A stretch of DNA of 64,000 nucleotides from Halomonas sp. Y3 (GTDB lineage Bacteria > Pseudomonadota > Gammaproteobacteria > Pseudomonadales > Halomonadaceae). Location of the stretch: contig NZ_CP099975.1 of NCBI RefSeq assembly GCF_024137965.1, positions 1,674,001-1,738,000 on the forward strand, given 5' to 3'. The notes under the pieces are model-generated. The model made no database searches. It was not told the DNA's origin and was given only the letters and a program-made list of their open reading frames with translations. Numbering within the stretch: position 1 is the stretch's first letter; every line of letters starts with the position of its first letter. The translations under genes were made by a program, and so were the position numbers. Below are positions 43,329-51,895 of the stretch, piece by piece.

Positions 43329-44681
43329 GTGACGCAACGGTCCGATACCTCTCCCGCCCTCGGCGTGACCCTCTGGCGCCAGACCTGGCCCATGGCCATC
43401 GGCGTGCTGGCGCTGCTCGGCTTCCAGCTGGTGGACAGCGCCTTCATCGCGCGCCTGGGTACCGCGCCCCTGGCCGCCCAGTCCTTCACCTTCCCGCTCA
43501 GCTTCCTGATCATCGGCATCCAGGTGGGCTTGGGGATCGCCATCGCCGCGCTGATCTCCCGGGCCCTGGGGGCCGGGGAGGGGGCGCGCGCCCGGCGCCT
43601 GGGCAGCCTGGTGCTGGCCGCCGGGGCCCTGGTGATCGCCCTCCTGGCGGTGGTGCTGTGGGCGGTCCAGGCGCCGGTGTTCCGCCTGCTGGGAGCCGAC
43701 GGGGCCACCCTGGCGCTGATTCGCGGCTACTGGGCGCCCCAGCTGCTGGCCGCCTGGCTGGGGGCGGCGCTCTACTTCGGCTACAGCCTGTTCCGGGCCC
43801 ACGGCGACACCCGCCTGCCGGGCAAGATGATGGTGGTCACCAGCCTGGTCAACCTGGTGCTCGACCCGCTGCTGATCTTCGGGGTCGGCCCCTGGGAGGG
43901 GCTGGGGCTGCCGGGCGCGGCCTGGGCCACGGTGATGGCCTTCGCCGTGGGGCTGGCGGTGCTGGGGCGCCGTCTCCTGGCCACCGACTGGCTGGCCCGG
44001 GAGGGGCTGGGTGCCGAGCTGCGCGCCTCGGCGCGCCCCTTCGCCGGCATCGCCGGCCCCGCCATGATCAGCCAGCTGATGCCGCCCCTGGCGGCCATGC
44101 TGGCGATTTCCGTGGTGGCAGGCCTTGGCGAGGCCTCGGTGGCCGCCTGGGGGCTGGCCAGCCGCCTGGAGACCCTCTCGCTGATGGTGGTGCTGGCCAT
44201 GACCATGTCGCTGCCGCCCTGGCTGGGGCGCTGCTACGGCGCCGGCGACTGGGACCAGGTGCACCGGCTGATGCGCCTGGCGCTCAGGGTGGTCCTGGTG
44301 TGGCAGCTGGCGCTGGGCCTGCTGATGGCCCTGGCCGCCCCCTGGCTGGCCCTGGCGCTGTCGGGCAACCCCGAGGTGCGCGACGACCTGGCCACCCTGA
44401 TCCGCTTTCTGCTGCCCAGCTACGCGGCCCTCGGCATCTGCATGATCGTGGTCTCGGCGGGCAACGCCCTGGGCTGGCCTCTGCGCGCCATGCTGATGTC
44501 CGGCGCCCGGCTCTTCCTCTTCTACCTGCCCTGCCTCTGGATCGGCGCCCGGCTGGGCGGCCTGGTCGGCCTCGCCGCCGGCGCCGCCGTCGGTAACCTG
44601 CTGGCGGGCCTCGCCGCTTGGCAGGTGCTGCGGCGCATCCTCGCCAGCCCCCGGCGCCGCGCCGCTACCGCCACCCCTTGA
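43329..44681 (+). CDS. MATE family efflux transporter
   Basis: A 450-residue protein with twelve hydrophobic segments in the two-bundle MATE arrangement (MAIGVLALLGFQLVDSAFIARLG; LGAGEGARARRLGSLVLAAGAL; AGPAMISQLMPPLAAMLA). It is predicted to export cationic drugs or metabolites using Na+ or H+. It starts with GTG 43329 after GAGCGAG. Closest in feel to NorM/DinF types, but specificity cannot be read. A 9-bp hairpin at 44709-44730 (loop CCGC) follows. Confidence 0.92.
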   Translation: MTQRSDTSPALGVTLWRQTWPMAIGVLALLGFQLVDSAFIARLGTAPLAAQSFTFPLSFLIIGIQVGLGIAIAALISRALGAGEGARARRLGSLVLAAGALVIALLAVVLWAVQAPVFRLLGADGATLALIRGYWAPQLLAAWLGAALYFGYSLFRAHGDTRLPGKMMVVTSLVNLVLDPLLIFGVGPWEGLGLPGAAWATVMAFAVGLAVLGRRLLATDWLAREGLGAELRASARPFAGIAGPAMISQLMPPLAAMLAISVVAGLGEASVAAWGLASRLETLSLMVVLAMTMSLPPWLGRCYGAGDWDQVHRLMRLALRVVLVWQLALGLLMALAAPWLALALSGNPEVRDDLATLIRFLLPSYAALGICMIVVSAGNALGWPLRAMLMSGARLFLFYLPCLWIGARLGGLVGLAAGAAVGNLLAGLAAWQVLRRILASPRRRAATATP

Positions 44682-44805
44682 TCGCTCCCCCTGGAGCCCT
44701 TGGCCGCTCGCCATGACCCGCGTCATGGCGGCCTGCGCTTCGCCTGCGCGGCGTGGCACCCGGCGGTGGGCTCAGGCATCATGGTAGCCATGCTGAAGGA
44801 GGGCC

Positions 44806-45417
44806 ATGATGGCGCGAGACGAGATGGCGCAAGATGAACTGACCGGCCTGATCCTGGCCGGCGGTCAGGGGCGGCGAATGGGTGGCGTCGACAAGGGGCT
44901 GGTGGCCTTCCGCGGCCGCCCCCTGGTGGCCCACGTCCGGGATCGGCTGGTCGGCCGGGTGGCGGAGCTGCTGATCAACGCCAACCGCAGCGAAGGCGAC
45001 TACGCCCCCCTGGCCGACCGGGTGATCGGTGACGCCGAGGGCGGCTTCCAGGGCCCGCTGATGGGGATCTACAGCGGCCTGTGCGCCGCCCGCACCCCCT
45101 GGCTGGTGGTAGCGCCCTGCGACACCCCCTCGCTGCCCCGGGAGCTGGTCCCGCGGCTGCTGGCCGGGCGCGGCGACGCCGATATCGCCGTGGCCTGGGA
45201 CGGCGAGCGCCTGCACCCGGTGGTGGCGCTGATCCGCACGGCCCTGGCCGACGACCTGGCCGCGGCCCTCGCCGCCGGCGAGCGCAAGATCGACCGCTGG
45301 TATGCCCGCCACCCCTGGTCCCGGGTCGACTTCTCCGACTGCCCGGAGGCCTTCGCCAACCTCAATACCGACGACGACAGGCGCCGCCTCGAGACGGCGC
45401 GGCACGAGGAGCCCTGA
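44806..45417 (+). CDS. mobA: molybdenum cofactor guanylyltransferase
   Basis: Links GMP from GTP to molybdopterin to give the MGD cofactor. The 203-residue product has the nucleotide loop LILAGGQGRRMGGVDKGLV and the GTP/Mg region VVAPCDTPSLP. AAGGAGGG precedes the start; ATG 44806 or 44809 is possible. It is the first gene of mobA-mobB-moeA-moaCD-moaE-moaA. Confidence 0.95.
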   Translation: MMARDEMAQDELTGLILAGGQGRRMGGVDKGLVAFRGRPLVAHVRDRLVGRVAELLINANRSEGDYAPLADRVIGDAEGGFQGPLMGIYSGLCAARTPWLVVAPCDTPSLPRELVPRLLAGRGDADIAVAWDGERLHPVVALIRTALADDLAAALAAGERKIDRWYARHPWSRVDFSDCPEAFANLNTDDDRRRLETARHEEP

Positions 45418-45420
45418 GCC

Positions 45421-46008
45421 ATGAGCGCAAGCGTTCCGACCCGGCTGCCGCTGGACGAGGGGCTGCCGCTGCTGGGCATCGCCGCCTGGAGCGGCACCGG
45501 CAAGACCACCCTGCTCGAGGCCCTGCTGCCGCTGCTCCATGACCGCGGCCTCAGGGTGGCGGTGATCAAGCACGCCCACCACACCTTCGATGTCGACCAG
45601 CCCGGCAAGGACAGCCATCGCCTGCGCCGGGCCGGCGCCGCCCCCATGCTGGTGGCCTCCCGGGAGCGCCTGGCGCTGATGATGGAGACCCCCGGCCAGG
45701 AGGAGCCGGACCTGGCGAAGCTGGTGGCGCTGGTCGCTACCCAGGACCCCGACCTGGTGCTGGTGGAGGGGTTCAAGGCCTGGCCGCTGCCCAAGCTCGA
45801 GCTGCATCGCCCGGCGCTGGGCAAGCCCCTGCGCGTGGCCGAGGACCCCTGGGTGCGCGCCGTGGCCTCGGATGCCCCCCTGACGCTGCCTCACGGGGTC
45901 GAGGCGCTGGACCTCAACGATCGCGAGGCCCTGGCGGACTGGATCGCCGCCTGGCCCGCCCGCTGGCTCGACGAGCGTGCCCCCCGGGCCGAGGAGGCCA
46001 CCCCATGA
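45421..46008 (+). CDS. mobB: molybdopterin-guanine dinucleotide biosynthesis adaptor MobB
   Basis: A 195-residue P-loop GTP-binding protein that assists MobA. Walker A is GIAAWSGTGKTTLLEALLP and the typical KHAHHTFDVDQPGKDSHRLRRAGA follows. VLVEGFKAWPLPKLELHR is the family's conserved Walker-B-like region. It lies 3 bp after mobA and overlaps moeA by 4 bp. Confidence 0.95.
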   Translation: MSASVPTRLPLDEGLPLLGIAAWSGTGKTTLLEALLPLLHDRGLRVAVIKHAHHTFDVDQPGKDSHRLRRAGAAPMLVASRERLALMMETPGQEEPDLAKLVALVATQDPDLVLVEGFKAWPLPKLELHRPALGKPLRVAEDPWVRAVASDAPLTLPHGVEALDLNDREALADWIAAWPARWLDERAPRAEEATP

Positions 46009-47273
46009 CCCTCTCCTGCTTCGAGCTCGGCGAACGCATGCTGACGGTGGAGGAGGCACGGGAGGCGGTGCTCGCCCTGGCCGAGGGCCCGCTGCCCGCC
46101 GAGGCGGTCGCGCTCGCCGCCGCCCACGGCCGCGTGCTGGCCGAGGCGCTGGTCTCGCCCATCGACGTGCCCCAGTGCACCAACGCCGCCATGGACGGCA
46201 TCGCTCTGGCCTGGCCGGCGGCGGGTCCTCCGGCTGAGGGGTTCCTGCGGGTCGCCGAGATCCATGCTGGCCACGCCGCCGCGCTCACCCTGGGGCCCGG
46301 CGAGTGTGCCGGCATCACCACCGGCGCGCCGCTGCCGGCGGGGGCCGACAGCGTGATCATGCGCGAGCAGCTGGCGGAGGAGGAGGGCGCCGACGGCCGC
46401 CTGCGGGTGAGGGTCAATCGCCCCGAGCGAGTGAGGCGCGGCCAGAACGTGCGCCGGGCCGGGGAGGATATCCCCCAGGGCAGCCTGGCCCTGGCCGCCG
46501 GGACCCGGCTCGGTGCCGCCGAGCTTGGCCTGCTCGCCTCCCTGGGGTGCGCCGAGGCGGCGGTGCGCCGCCGGCCCCGGGTGGCGCTCTTCTCCACCGG
46601 TGACGAGGTGACCGCCCCGGGCGCGCCGCTGCCCGCCGCCGGCATCTTCGATGCCAACCGTTTCAGCCTGATGGCGCTGGCCGCCGAGCGCGGCGCCGAG
46701 GTGATCGACCTGGGCATCCTGCCCGACAGCCGCGTCGCCATCGGCGAGGCCCTGGCCCGGGCCGCCGAGGAGGCGGACCTGGTGATCACCAGCGGCGGGG
46801 TCTCGGTAGGCGACGCCGACCATACCCGGGCGGCCCTGGCCGAGCAGGGAGAGCTCGGCTTCTGGAAGATCGCCATCCGTCCCGGCCGCCCCCTGGCCTG
46901 CGGGCGCCTCGGGCCCCGGGGCACGCCCTTCCTGGGGCTGCCGGGCAACCCGGTGGCGGCCATGGTCACCTTCCTGCAGTTTGCCGCGCCCCTGCTGGCC
47001 CGCCTCCAGGGGCGAGAGCCGACGGCCGCGCCGCGCCTGGTGGCGGTGGCCGAGCACGAGCTCGGAAGCCGCCCCGGCCGGGTCGACTATCTGCGCGGGG
47101 TCTACCGCAGCGACGCCGAGGGGCGGCTGCGGGTCGCCGGCATCGGCGCCCAGGGCTCCGGCATCCTCTCCTCCATGGCGCAGGCCAACTGCCTGATCGA
47201 GATCACCGCCGAGCGCGCCGCCGTAGCCGCCGGCGAGGCGGTGACCATCCACCCCCTGTTCCGTTTTCCGTGA
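46005..47273 (+). CDS. moeA: molybdopterin molybdenumtransferase MoeA
   Basis: Inserts molybdate into adenylated molybdopterin. The 422-residue product shows the MoeA N-terminal domain ([11 protein letters not shown]), [16 protein letters not shown], the MoCF-binding domain ([28 protein letters not shown]) and the C-terminal beta domain. [13 protein letters not shown] is a signature stretch. Confidence 0.96.
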
Positions 47274-47283
47274 GGCACCCTTC

Positions 47284-48120
47284 ATGTCACTGACCCATCT
47301 CAACGCCCGCGGCGAGGCCCATATGGTCGACGTTGCCGACAAGCCGGAGAGTCGCCGCGAGTCCAGCGCCTCCGGGCGCATCCAGATGCATCCCGACACC
47401 CTGGCGCTGCTCGCCGAGGGCGGCCTGCCCAAGGGTGACGTCCTGGCCACGGCGCGCATCGCCGGCATCCAGGCCGCCAAGCGCACCCACGAACTGATTC
47501 CCCTCTGCCATGCCCTGGCGCTCTCCAAGGTGGTCATCGACTTTACCCTGGACGAGGCGGCGAGCTGCGTCGAGGTGAGGGCCACCTGCCGGCTCAACGG
47601 CCGCACCGGGGTCGAGATGGAGGCGCTGACCGCGGTCTCCGTGGCCTGTCTGACCCTCTACGACATGTGCAAGGCGGTGGACAAGGAGATGGAGATCGGC
47701 GCCATCCACCTCGACACCAAGACCGGCGGCAAGTCCGGCGACTATCGCCGGGAGGGCGCGGCGGCCGCCGCCGAACCGGTGGTGCGTGCCGTCGACGGCC
47801 CCATCGTCACCGGTGAGGGACAGGCCGGCCAGGTCGCGCTGGGCAGCCGCTGCGACATCGCCGCCCCCTGCGTCCGCGTGAAGTGCCTGGCCGAGCTGCG
47901 CGAGCGCCTGGGCGTCGGCGACGTTTCCATGCCCCTGGGCGACCTCGAACGCACCGACGTGGCCGGCCTGAAGGCGGCCCTCAAGACGCTCGACCCGCGC
48001 TTCTCGCGCCTCGACGAGGGCCGGGTGCTCTGCGCCGTCAACCAGGTGATGGCCAGCGACAGCACGCCGCTCACCGACGACGATGAAGTGGCCTTTTTTC
48101 CCCCCGTGACCGGAGGCTGA
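47284..48120 (+). CDS. MoaC-MoaD fusion protein
   Basis: One 278-residue frame carries two cofactor-synthesis proteins. Residues about 1-158 are MoaC (cyclic pyranopterin monophosphate synthase: [59 protein letters not shown]). Residues about 199-278 are MoaD, the small MPT-synthase subunit ([12 protein letters not shown] ... [30 protein letters not shown]) with the free C-terminal Gly-Gly needed for thiocarboxylation. The Ala-rich linker of about 40 residues has the high third-position GC of coding sequence. No ATG stands at the expected MoaD start, although an internal GTG start cannot be excluded. moaE follows 4 bp downstream. Confidence 0.85.
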
Positions 48121-48124
48121 GGCG

Positions 48125-48574
48125 ATGATTCGAGTACAGCAGGCGCCCTTCGATGCCGGCGCCGAACAGCAGGCCCTGCTCGCCGGGCGCACCGATATCG
48201 GCGCCGTGGTCTGCTTTACCGGCCTGGTCCGCGACTTCAACGAGACGCCGGAGGTCACCGCCCTGACCCTGGAGCACTACCCCGGCATGACCGAGTCGGC
48301 CCTGGAGGCGATCGTGGTCGAGGCCGAGGCGCGCTGGCCCCTGGACGGCGTGCGGGTGATTCATCGGGTTGGACGACTGGCCCCCGGAGACCCTATCGTG
48401 TTGGTAGCGGTGGCCAGCGCCCATCGGCGGGCGGCCTTCGAGGCCTGTGATTTCATCATGGACTACCTCAAGACCCGCGCCCCCTTCTGGAAGAAGGAGC
48501 ACGCTACCGGCGGTGACTACTGGGTCGCCGAGCGCGACTCCGACCACGCCGACGCCAGCCGCTGGGAGGCCTGA
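48125..48574 (+). CDS. moaE: molybdopterin synthase catalytic subunit MoaE
   Basis: Large subunit of MPT synthase; takes sulfur from the MoaD thiocarboxylate. The 149-residue product has GAVVCFTGLVRDFN, ALTLEHYPGMTESALEAI, HRVGRLAPGDPIVLVAVASAHRRAAFEACDFIMDYLKTRAPFWKKE (positions about 81-125), with the catalytic Lys residues in the last stretch. It lies directly after the MoaC-MoaD fusion. Confidence 0.96.
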   Translation: MIRVQQAPFDAGAEQQALLAGRTDIGAVVCFTGLVRDFNETPEVTALTLEHYPGMTESALEAIVVEAEARWPLDGVRVIHRVGRLAPGDPIVLVAVASAHRRAAFEACDFIMDYLKTRAPFWKKEHATGGDYWVAERDSDHADASRWEA

Positions 48575-48616
48575 TCACGCTGCCGCCATTCTCGCCCACC
48601 TGCCCGGAGAGAGACC

Positions 48617-49618
48617 ATGACAACGCTGCCCCCTGAGCTGATCGACGACTTCGGCAGGCGCGTGCGCTATGTGCGAATCTCGGTGACCGATCGCTGCGAC
48701 TTTCGCTGCGTCTACTGCATGAGCGAGGAGATGACCTTCCTGCCCCGGGCCCAGGTGCTGACCCTGGAGGAGCTGGCCCTGGTGGCCCGGGCCTTCGTCG
48801 AGCTGGGGGTGGAGAAGGTGCGCCTGACCGGCGGCGAACCCCTGGTGCGCCGCGATATCGACCGGCTGGTCGGCGAGATCGGCGCGCTGCCCGGGCTCAG
48901 GGACTTCGCCATGACCACCAACGGTGCCGGGCTCGGTCGCTTTGCGGCGAAGCTGCGCGCCGGGGGCCTCGGGCGGCTCAATATCAGCCTGGACTCCCTG
49001 GACCCGGCGCGCTTTCGCCGGCTCACCCGCACCGGGGAGCTTGCCCGGGTCATCGACGGCATTCGCGCCGCCCGGGAGGCGGGCTTCCAGCGCATCAAGC
49101 TCAATGCGGTCATCCTCAAGGGGCGCAACGACGACGAGGTGCTCGACCTGGTCGACTTCGCCCGGCGTGAGCGCCTCGATATCAGCTTTATCGAAGAGAT
49201 GCCCCTGGGGGATGTCTCCGACCATCGCCGGGACGAGACCTTCTGCTCCAGCGACGAGGTCCAGGCGCGGATCGAGGCGCGCTATCCGCTGCTGCCGACC
49301 ACCGAGTCCACCCTGGGCCCCTCGCGCTACTTCCGCATGGCCGACAGCGAGAGCCGCGTCGGTTTTATCTCCCCTCACAGCCACAACTTCTGCGCCAGCT
49401 GCAACCGGGTTCGGGTGACGGTGGAGGGGCGCCTGCTGCTGTGTCTGGGCAACGAGCACTCCGTTGACCTGCGTCGGGTGCTGCGCGCCCACCCCGGGGA
49501 TATCGACGCGCTCAAGCGCGCCATCGTGGCCGCCATGCCCCTCAAGCCCGAGCGCCACCACTTCACCACCGACGGCGACGTTCAGGTGGTCCGCTTCATG
49601 AACATGACCGGCGGTTAA
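48617..49618 (+). CDS. moaA: GTP 3',8-cyclase MoaA
   Basis: Radical SAM enzyme that starts cofactor synthesis from GTP. The 333-residue product has the N-terminal cluster Cys27, Cys31, Cys34 ([10 protein letters not shown]), [11 protein letters not shown] for SAM binding, and the C-terminal cluster motif [20 protein letters not shown]. The terminal Gly-Gly (MTGG) required for activity is present. A terminator follows. Confidence 0.97.
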
Positions 49619-49678
49619 GGGCGACCGCCGGGGCGCTTTCGACGCTTATCCAGCCGCGCTTTGCCTCACCATCGCGAC

Positions 49679-49710
49679 GAAATTCCCGCCCCTCACGGCG
49701 GGAATTTCTT
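49679..49710 (+). terminator. terminator after moaA
   Basis: A perfect 12-bp stem (49679-49690 with 49697-49708, loop CCTCAC) is followed by TTGCT. It closes the cofactor operon 60 bp after moaA. Confidence 0.8.
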
Positions 49711-49793
49711 GCTAATACGTGCATGATGCATATACTTTTGTCAGACACATAGCAGCAATAACCCGTCTCGTTTTCTGGTTCAGGAGGGGACCC

Positions 49794-50084
49794 ATGTCCA
49801 GCGAATCCCTGGAGCGCATCGCGCGCAACAAGAACGTCGCCCGCGCTGCCGCTCGCCAGCTCAGCATGGAGCAGCTGCACAAGCTCTCCGAGGTCATCGA
49901 GGAGGTGATCGAGCTGAAGAAGGATGAGGAGCGCCAGCGTCAGGAAGAGGAGCAGCAAAAGGAACGCAAGCGCAACGAGATTCTCGAGGCGATCAGCGAA
50001 GCGGGCCTCTCGGTGGACGACCTGGTTACCGAACCGCCACGTCGCAAGCGCGGCCGTCCGCCCAAGAACGCCACCAAGGCGTAG
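49794..50084 (+). CDS. small H-NS-like protein with C-terminal AT-hook
   Basis: A 96-residue protein. Residues about 4-77 resemble the H-NS N-terminal and central oligomerisation regions: ARNKNVARAAARQLSMEQLHKLSEVIEEVIELKKDEE aligns with the H-NS helices (positions about 10-46), then a highly charged coiled coil ends GLSVDDLV, like GIDPNELL in H-NS. Instead of the roughly 45-residue H-NS DNA-binding domain, it ends in RRKRGRPPKNATKA, an AT-hook (RGRP core). AGGAGGGG lies 3 nt before the ATG. The 5' region is AT-rich. It is monocistronic, flanked by terminators. A nucleoid-binding role is inferred. Confidence 0.75.
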   Translation: MSSESLERIARNKNVARAAARQLSMEQLHKLSEVIEEVIELKKDEERQRQEEEQQKERKRNEILEAISEAGLSVDDLVTEPPRRKRGRPPKNATKA

Positions 50085-50182: not shown

Positions 50183-51895
50183 CTAGCCGACTTCCCTGGC
50201 ATGGGGGGCCTCCACCGCCATGATCTGCAGGTGGATATCCGGCAGGCGGCGCAGGTGGTCGGCGAACCAGCCGATCAGGCGAGGCTGCAGGGCCAGGCGC
50301 AGCTCCGCCAGGGTCTCGGCGGTGATCGAGGCCAGGGCGTCATCCAGCCAGTCGCTGAAGGCGTCTTCGTCGATGGGGCTCGCCTGGCTGGCGTCCAGCA
50401 TCAGCCGGCCGATCCGGGTCCAGCCCCCCTCGCCGGTGGAGGCCACCGAGAGCGCCAGGTAGAGGCTGCCGTGGCGGGGGCCGTGGCGCTCCGCGGCCAG
50501 GCCCGGCAGCGGCGCCACGGCGTTCTGGCTGACGATGCAGGGCGGCTGGGGGTGGCGGGACTCCAGGGTGAGGCCCTCGCCGTCCAGGCGGATCAGGTCG
50601 CCGTTGACCGGCACCAGGGGCGCCTCGATGCCGAGCGCCTCGGCCAGCTCGCAGTGGGCCTGCTGGTGGCGGGCCTCGCCGTGCACCGGCAGCAGCCGGC
50701 GGGGGCGGACCCAGCCGTAGAAGGTGCGCAGCTCCTCCTGGGCGGGGTGTCCCGAGGCGTGCAGCTCCGGATGGTTGAACTCGTCGAGCAGCGTCACCCC
50801 CAGGCGCCTGAGCCCGTTCTTGAGACGCTCGATCAGTAGCTCGTTGCCGGGAATCGCCTTGGCCGAGAAGATCACGCTGTCGCCGGGGCCCAGCTCCATG
50901 GCGTGGTGGCGCCCCCGGGCCAGGCGGCTGAGCGCCGCCCGGGGCTCCCCCTGGCTGCCGGTGGCGATCACCAGCACCTCCTCCGGCGGCAGGTAGCCGA
51001 GGTCGGCGGTGGGCACCAGGGGCGGGAAGTCGTCCAGGTAGCCCAGGCCCCGGGCCACCGCCACCATGCGCTCCATGGAGCGCCCCATCAGGCTCACCCG
51101 GCGGCCCGCCCGGTGGGCGGCGCGGCCGATGGCCAGCACCCGGGCCAGGTTGCTGGCGAAGCAGGACACCACCACCCGCCCCTGGCAGGCGGCAATGGTG
51201 TGCTCGAGGGCCCGGGCCACCTCGCCCTCGCTGCGGGAGTGGCCGGGCAGGGGAGCATTGGTGGAGTCGCCCACCACCAGGTCCACCGGGCCGATGGCGC
51301 GGAAGGTCGAGGCGGCGATGGGGCGGCCGATCAGCGGCTCGGGGTCGAGCTTCCAGTCGCCGGTATGCAGCACCCGATGCTCGCCGGCGGCCAGCAGCAG
51401 GGCGCAGCTCTCGGGGATGGAGTGGGACACCGGCAGGTAGCGCAGGGTGAAGGGGCCGCTCTCCAGGGCCTCGCCGGGTTCGATGACCTGAATGGCGTCG
51501 GTGGCGAGCCCCCGCTCCACGAACTTGGCGCGCAGCAGGCCCGCGGCCAGGGGCGTGGCGTGGATCGGACAGCCCCACTTCGGCCACAGCCAGGCGGCGG
51601 CGCCGATATGGTCCTCATGGCCGTGGGTGATGATCAGCGCCCGGGGTCGGATGCCGAGGGTGGCCAGCAGCTCGAGATTGGGCACCTGAAGCGGGCTGTC
51701 GGGGAGATCCTGGCGGATCATCATCCCGCAGTCCACGGCCACCCACTCCTCGGCGAAGCCGTAGAGGCTCAGGTTCATGCCGATCTCGCCGCAGCCGCCC
51801 AGGGGGAGGAAGTGCAGGGGAGGGCGGCGGCGGGGGCGAATCTGGACTCTGGGCTGGGGCATGGGGCGCGGCGGGCTCGAAAAGTGTTCCTTCAC
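50183..51895 (-). CDS. RNase J-type metallo-beta-lactamase/beta-CASP hydrolase
   Basis: The 570-residue product has the RNase J layout. The MBL motifs are PLGGCGEIGMNLSLYG, DCGMMIRQ and THGHEDHIGA; the beta-CASP region has VIATGSQGEPRAALSRLARG; then HASGHPAQEELRTFYGWVRPRRLLPVHGEARHQQAH (positions about 385-420) supplies the late metal and substrate residues. A divergent C-terminal domain follows. It is predicted to be an endo/5'-exoribonuclease. GTG 51893-51895 is the longest start; ATG 51860-51862 (MPQPRVQ) is an alternative, and neither has a good ribosome-binding site. Confidence 0.85.
   Translation of the reverse strand: MKEHFSSPPRPMPQPRVQIRPRRRPPLHFLPLGGCGEIGMNLSLYGFAEEWVAVDCGMMIRQDLPDSPLQVPNLELLATLGIRPRALIITHGHEDHIGAAAWLWPKWGCPIHATPLAAGLLRAKFVERGLATDAIQVIEPGEALESGPFTLRYLPVSHSIPESCALLLAAGEHRVLHTGDWKLDPEPLIGRPIAASTFRAIGPVDLVVGDSTNAPLPGHSRSEGEVARALEHTIAACQGRVVVSCFASNLARVLAIGRAAHRAGRRVSLMGRSMERMVAVARGLGYLDDFPPLVPTADLGYLPPEEVLVIATGSQGEPRAALSRLARGRHHAMELGPGDSVIFSAKAIPGNELLIERLKNGLRRLGVTLLDEFNHPELHASGHPAQEELRTFYGWVRPRRLLPVHGEARHQQAHCELAEALGIEAPLVPVNGDLIRLDGEGLTLESRHPQPPCIVSQNAVAPLPGLAAERHGPRHGSLYLALSVASTGEGGWTRIGRLMLDASQASPIDEDAFSDWLDDALASITAETLAELRLALQPRLIGWFADHLRRLPDIHLQIMAVEAPHAREVG

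Follow-up and report, generated by a model that had tools for sequence, protein, structure and literature searches.

A MoaC-MoaD fusion gene in the Moco cluster of Halomonas and its near-universal presence in sampled Halomonadaceae genomes

The gene moaCD of Halomonas sp. Y3 joins MoaC to a MoaD-type domain in one open reading frame, and this fusion is real and near-universal in the genomes sampled from its family, Halomonadaceae. In the synthesis of the molybdenum cofactor (Moco), MoaC produces the earliest stable intermediate, cPMP, and MoaD is the small sulfur carrier of the step that follows. The gene lies in a 64,000-nucleotide stretch of Y3 DNA, herein called the window. Its product, MoaCD, is very probably one uncut bifunctional polypeptide in which MoaD is flexibly tethered to MoaC.

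Results

Translation of moaCD gives 278 codons from the ATG at 47284 to the stop at 48118-48120, with no internal stop (Table 1). Pfam recognizes both MoaC (PF01967; residues 14-149, 188.5 bits, cut-off 27) and ThiS (PF02597; residues 221-278, 46.2 bits, cut-off 22.5), which bears out the reading of MoaC and MoaD in a single frame made in the first-pass annotation. The TIGR00581 model of MoaC also scores above its cut-off (207.8 bits, cut-off 141.5) and is covered from end to end (1-148 of 148). Residues K50, H76, E111, E113, D127 and K130 are invariant in 25 fused sequences and align with E. coli MoaC, the active site of which we take to be Lys51, His77, Glu112, Glu114, Asp128 and Lys131; K51A and Asp128Ala variants of MoaC appear in PDB titles. 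At the other end, the frame closes with PPVTGG followed by the stop, so that the MoaD part does keep a free Gly-Gly as had been claimed; this pair is invariant in 25 fused sequences, a set chosen as ending in GG. The linker had been described as Ala-rich and about 40 residues long: the length holds (39 residues, 158-196), whereas only its first part is Ala-rich.

The MoaD half falls below the cut-off of the NCBIfam moaD model (TIGR01682), which aligns over residues 197-278 with 47.5 bits (51.0 for the domain alone; cut-off 66.15). Four fused relatives were scored with the same model; one passes (L062, 71.5) and the other three fail (57.8, 59.2 and 55.4). We therefore name the domain MoaD-type by context and fold and not by that model, and a pathway reconstruction using the NCBIfam moaD model alone would call moaD missing here. 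A search of the genome with the ThiS-family profile returns two domains over the cut-off, that of MoaCD and a true ThiS (TIGR01683, 75.8 bits, cut-off 37.45), with a third match below it (19.6 bits, cut-off 22.5); among the matches over the cut-off there is no second recognizable MoaD. MoeB is encoded in the genome (NF004281, 297 bits, cut-off 266). The adjacent moaE and the genomic moeB are consistent with the MoaD-type domain acting as a MoeB-activated sulfur carrier for MoaE.

An AlphaFold2 monomer model of MoaCD, built from ten fused sequences and of moderate confidence (mean pLDDT 68.7, pTM 0.46), predicts two separate folded domains, with pLDDT below 50 at residues 1-22, 74-76, 150-192 and 276-278. 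Foldseek matches the MoaD part to E. coli MoaD (1fm0_D; TM by target 0.85, rmsd 2.0), and the best PDB match of the MoaC part, by sequence as well as by Foldseek, is E. coli MoaC (4pyd). The sequence search of the PDB gave 12 sequences, none covering both domains, and the same holds for the MoaC and MoaD structures among the best 50 Foldseek matches.

The fusion was followed through the genus and the family of the window. All 90 genomes searched from the genus match, 89 of them as one uninterrupted full-length frame; in the family, 267 of 275 genomes match, and both domains lie in one open frame in 265 of these. The 265 include one genome whose match begins at residue 11 (G106) and five with two matches each, in which translation confirmed a single frame (G094, G102, G103, G150 and G183). 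The frame is broken in the two others, both incomplete assemblies (G069, 76% complete; G266, 74% complete). An open frame in 89/90 genus and 265/267 family genomes is neither chance nor sequencing error, and the suggestion that two genes had been joined by a sequencing or assembly error, for which there is next to no chance, is thereby refuted. The first-pass annotation had named a hidden stop in the linker and separate genes in relatives as findings that would tell against a fusion; the linker frame is open, and the family relatives are fused as well. Eight family genomes have no match (G138-G141, G163, G171, G243 and G274); four of them are 66-88% complete and four 95-99%, and the latter may lack Moco synthesis.

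A scan of named contigs returned 80 loci, 79 of them readable, of which nine are fused and the other 70 separate. The nine belong to Halomonas, Billgrantia, Litchfieldella, Vreelandella, Modicisalibacter and Kushneria, and the MoaC domain of one of them (Halomonas sp. LBP4) is identical to that from a genome of the window's genus. Among plasmid records (the best 20 of 102 and the best 20 of 66), none is annotated as fused, a result that reflects annotation only, which several of the records lack. In one genome (G129, L054 1501-2865, minus strand), MobB, MoaC and MoaD share a stop-free frame of 455 aa, a possible triple fusion, although translation may still begin at an ATG where MoaC starts. 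A frame reported as equal in length to that of G129 is present in G130 (C1:720307-721092); G128, of the same genus, has a 265-aa frame only.

In the window, moaCD sits in a cluster ordered mobA-mobB-moeA-moaCD-moaE-moaA, all on one strand (Table 1). Among the nine named fused loci, a search by a rough sequence pattern recognized moaE downstream in seven and moeA upstream in five. In two Vreelandella loci (L073, L075) and in Halomonas sp. SpR8 (L076), neither moeA nor moaA is recognized within 3 kb on each side; the wider cluster is thus seemingly not fixed. A 1.83-Mb record of Halomonas sp. PA16-9 listed as a plasmid (L061) has a moeA-like stretch in two frames adjoining moaA, without moaCD and moaE between them. 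At the gathering threshold, the window shows no match to an RNA family, the Moco riboswitch included. A scan of 44500-49800 gave a single promoter-like site, which lies past moaA (0.2 expected), and a single terminator-like site, which lies inside moaE (1.0 expected).

Table 1. The Moco cluster of the window, the parts of moaCD and the neighbouring genes (dN/dS from 30 of the 90 genus genomes)
Feature	Position	Strand	Evidence and remarks
MatE-family transporter	43329..44681	+	ordinary-looking cluster neighbour
mobA	44806..45417	+	TIGR02665 221.9 bits, cut-off 151.85
mobB	45421..46008	+	TIGR00176 146.8 bits, cut-off 76.2
moeA	46005..47273	+	NF007960 467 bits, cut-off 440; ends 10 bases before moaCD
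moaCD, fused MoaC-MoaD gene	47284..48120	+	278 aa; single open frame; Pfam MoaC and ThiS; fusion conserved
MoaC domain, residues 1-157	47284..47754	+	NF006870 MoaC 234.3 bits, cut-off 162; dN/dS 0.14
Variable Ala-rich linker part, residues 158-172	47755..47799	+	dN/dS 0.99; length differs among relatives; pLDDT <50
Conserved linker part, residues 173-196 (PIVTGE...RCDIAAPC)	47800..47871	+	dN/dS 0.29
MoaD-type domain, residues 197-278, end PPVTGG	47872..48117	+	Pfam ThiS above cut-off; Foldseek 1fm0_D; dN/dS 0.20
moaE, MPT synthase catalytic subunit	48125..48574	+	Pfam MoaE; NF007959 197.8 bits, cut-off 175; 4 bases past moaCD
moaA, GTP 3',8-cyclase	48617..49618	+	TIGR02666 374.2 bits, cut-off 284.05
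H-NS N-terminal domain protein	49719..50084	+	ordinary-looking cluster neighbour
RNase J-like metallo-beta-lactamase protein	50183..51895	-	ordinary-looking cluster neighbour

Defining how far the fusion extends beyond the family relied on samples of the order, class and phylum. In the order sample (390 genomes, including 18 of the family), the full-length uninterrupted matches outside the family, among those listed, are three genomes of a single genus (G425, G346 and G484), and their fusion was confirmed by translation. Among the matches listed for the class sample (274 genomes), two genomes have a full-length uninterrupted match, both from the window's family; for the phylum sample (398 genomes) there are nine, again all from the family. 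Rarity outside the family is a statement on the sampled matches listed, which might miss a fusion split into two matches, and to this extent all three samples agree with the earlier impression that MoaC-MoaD is not a common pairing.

A MoaC tree built from 126 rows places the trio from outside the family with two deep genera of the family (support 99/97) and requires three changes to account for the fused rows. A tree constrained to keep all fused rows in one group is, however, not rejected (AU p 0.338). The data are thus compatible with one origin of the fusion, with transfer and with several origins. Sixteen relatives from the order with separate genes (L149-L164) were compared, with the moaD starts read from the printed junctions. 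In 15 of the 16, the moaD start and the moaC stop overlap or are no more than a few bases apart, with the form ATGA in nine. A junction this tight offers an explanation of the fused form: the moaC stop would have been lost, with an indel bringing moaD into frame where the frames differ, and we infer that the fusion arose in this way. In the sixteenth relative (G639, L154), the moaD start lies about 20 bases past the moaC stop, in the same frame and with one TAA between; this locus is one step from fusion, and the genome search reports an open frame running through its TAA.

Linkers were compared in 57 distinct fused sequences, chosen as open frames ending in GG. Their lengths range from 18 to 83 residues, with 26 different values. 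None of the 1,984 linker codons is an in-frame stop, while the other two frames hold 34 and 61 stops, against about 42 expected from base composition; as the 57 were preselected as open, the unselected support for an open linker is the count of 265/267 genomes. Within the genus, the two parts of the linker evolve differently (Table 1): residues 158-172 drift neutrally and residues 173-196, the 24 residues beside MoaD, are constrained. The genus has the conserved stretch, PIVTGE...RCDIxxPC, in common with its near genera, but distant fused genera lack it. Its synonymous codons are variable, so that the constraint looks to act at the protein level. The sequence of the linker thus behaves like that of a coding region, one predicted to be mostly disordered and constrained in part. 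No PDB relative of the linker was found at E up to 10. In G150, the linker owes its length of 83 residues to 10.6 copies of a 15-base unit (L043 1326-1484; 98% matches), which keep the frame.

A start codon within the linker could in principle release MoaD as a separate product, and initiation at a GTG had been raised in the first-pass annotation. GTG is indeed a frequent codon there: many linkers contain it, in some cases preceded by a Shine-Dalgarno-like match, and one linker column is GTG in 19 of 38 close relatives. In the window this column reads CTG, and no Shine-Dalgarno-like match precedes the GTGs that are in frame within or beside the linker (residues 166, 167 and 199). In the relatives such matches lie mostly 0-1 bases upstream of the GTG, closer than the usual spacing, although a start at that column may still work in them; in a few relatives a different GTG follows GAGG at a distance of 11 bases, an arrangement absent from the window. 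Moreover, 16 of the 57 linkers are without any ATG, GTG or TTG, and an internal start would tolerate stops or frameshifts upstream of it, of which 265 of the 267 genomes have none. With no Shine-Dalgarno-like match at its GTGs and no conserved start, internal initiation is rejected for the window gene, and separate synthesis of MoaD from the linker is very improbable.

Discussion

As one uncut polypeptide, MoaCD would join two parts of the Moco pathway. MoaC would assemble as the usual hexamer and turn the MoaA product into cPMP, and that hexamer would carry up to six MoaD domains, each on a flexible tether some 40 residues long. Tethers of this length would be long enough for MoaD to reach MoeB, where adenylation and then thiocarboxylation would take place. 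The tethered C-termini would then insert into MoaE, and MPT synthase would thus be built on a MoaC core. The fusion was probably retained because MoaD now has no start of its own, and not necessarily for any benefit from channelling.

Other readings of the same gene have to be weighed against the uncut tether. The fusion may be an adaptive scaffold, in which the tether would concentrate MPT synthase where cPMP has just been made, a benefit that would keep the two domains joined. In favour of such a scaffold are the 265 fused genomes among the 267 that match in the family, the constraint seen on part of the linker within the genus and the position of moaE directly after moaCD in the window; we nevertheless consider it unlikely. 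Neutral drift in the other part of the linker and lengths of 18-83 residues demand little geometry, and the conserved part is absent from the distant fused genera. MoaE, not MoaD, is the cPMP-binding subunit, and the part that is tethered here is MoaD. In addition, the accessible part of PMC5694649 describes cPMP as the least oxygen-sensitive intermediate, and this stability would weaken the need for protected transfer. Linker drift and cPMP stability thus speak against a strict channel, and channelling is a possibility that we do not favour.

Slightly less probable again is that the fusion is made and then cut in the linker into free MoaC and MoaD, by analogy with what has been proposed for JAMM-cleaved MoaD-MoaE. 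Such a cut could fall in the conserved stretch that precedes MoaD, and DR0402 cleaves a MoaD-MoaE fusion, as cited in the accessible part of PMC11237513; this stretch is, however, absent in several fused genera, and because MoaD is C-terminal in MoaCD, its Gly-Gly is already free and cutting would not be needed. An uncut MoaCD is accordingly the reading that we retain, and the constraint on part of the linker in the genus leaves room within it for a docking role. Under that proposal, PIVTGE...RCDIxxPC would keep MoaE or MoeB docked to the hexamer of MoaC, giving a standing MoaC-MoaD-MoaE assembly that does the first two pathway steps together in Halomonas, an idea that we regard as a long shot. 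The family offers a natural tether between successive steps of the Moco pathway, and, as it has cultivable members, the value of tethering is directly testable.

The closest known counterparts of moaCD are the separate moaC-moaD genes of its relatives (L149-L164), which have homologous domains in the same order but make two proteins, with a stop between them and no linker. The MoaC/MoaB, MoaC/MOSC and MoaC/MobA families (NF002947, NF011069 and NF011070) place another Moco-pathway domain after MoaC; MoaCD matches them in the MoaC part, the partner differs, and MoaCD does not reach their cut-offs (196.2 of 285, 189 of 457 and 121.2 of 606 bits, respectively). Archaeal MoaC-MoaE, MoaC-MoaB and MoaC-MoaC fusions exist, in which MoaC is joined to a pathway partner or to itself, and the accessible part of PMC11237513, which describes them, names no MoaC-MoaD pair. 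Fusions involving MoaD are known as MoaD-MoaE (accessible parts of PMC1779556 and PMC11237513) and MoaD-MoeB (accessible part of PMC11237513). The MoaD C-terminus is internal in MoaD-MoaE and is said there to need cutting (same part of PMC11237513), whereas in MoaCD it is free. The fusion text in the accessible part of PMC6147048 concerns molybdoproteins, not synthesis enzymes. No description of a MoaC-MoaD fusion was found in the literature searched, which was covered mainly at abstract level, with subscription journals thinly represented. Judged by domain content, moaCD would therefore belong to a kind already known, that of Moco-pathway fusions, and its MoaC-MoaD pairing appears to be new.
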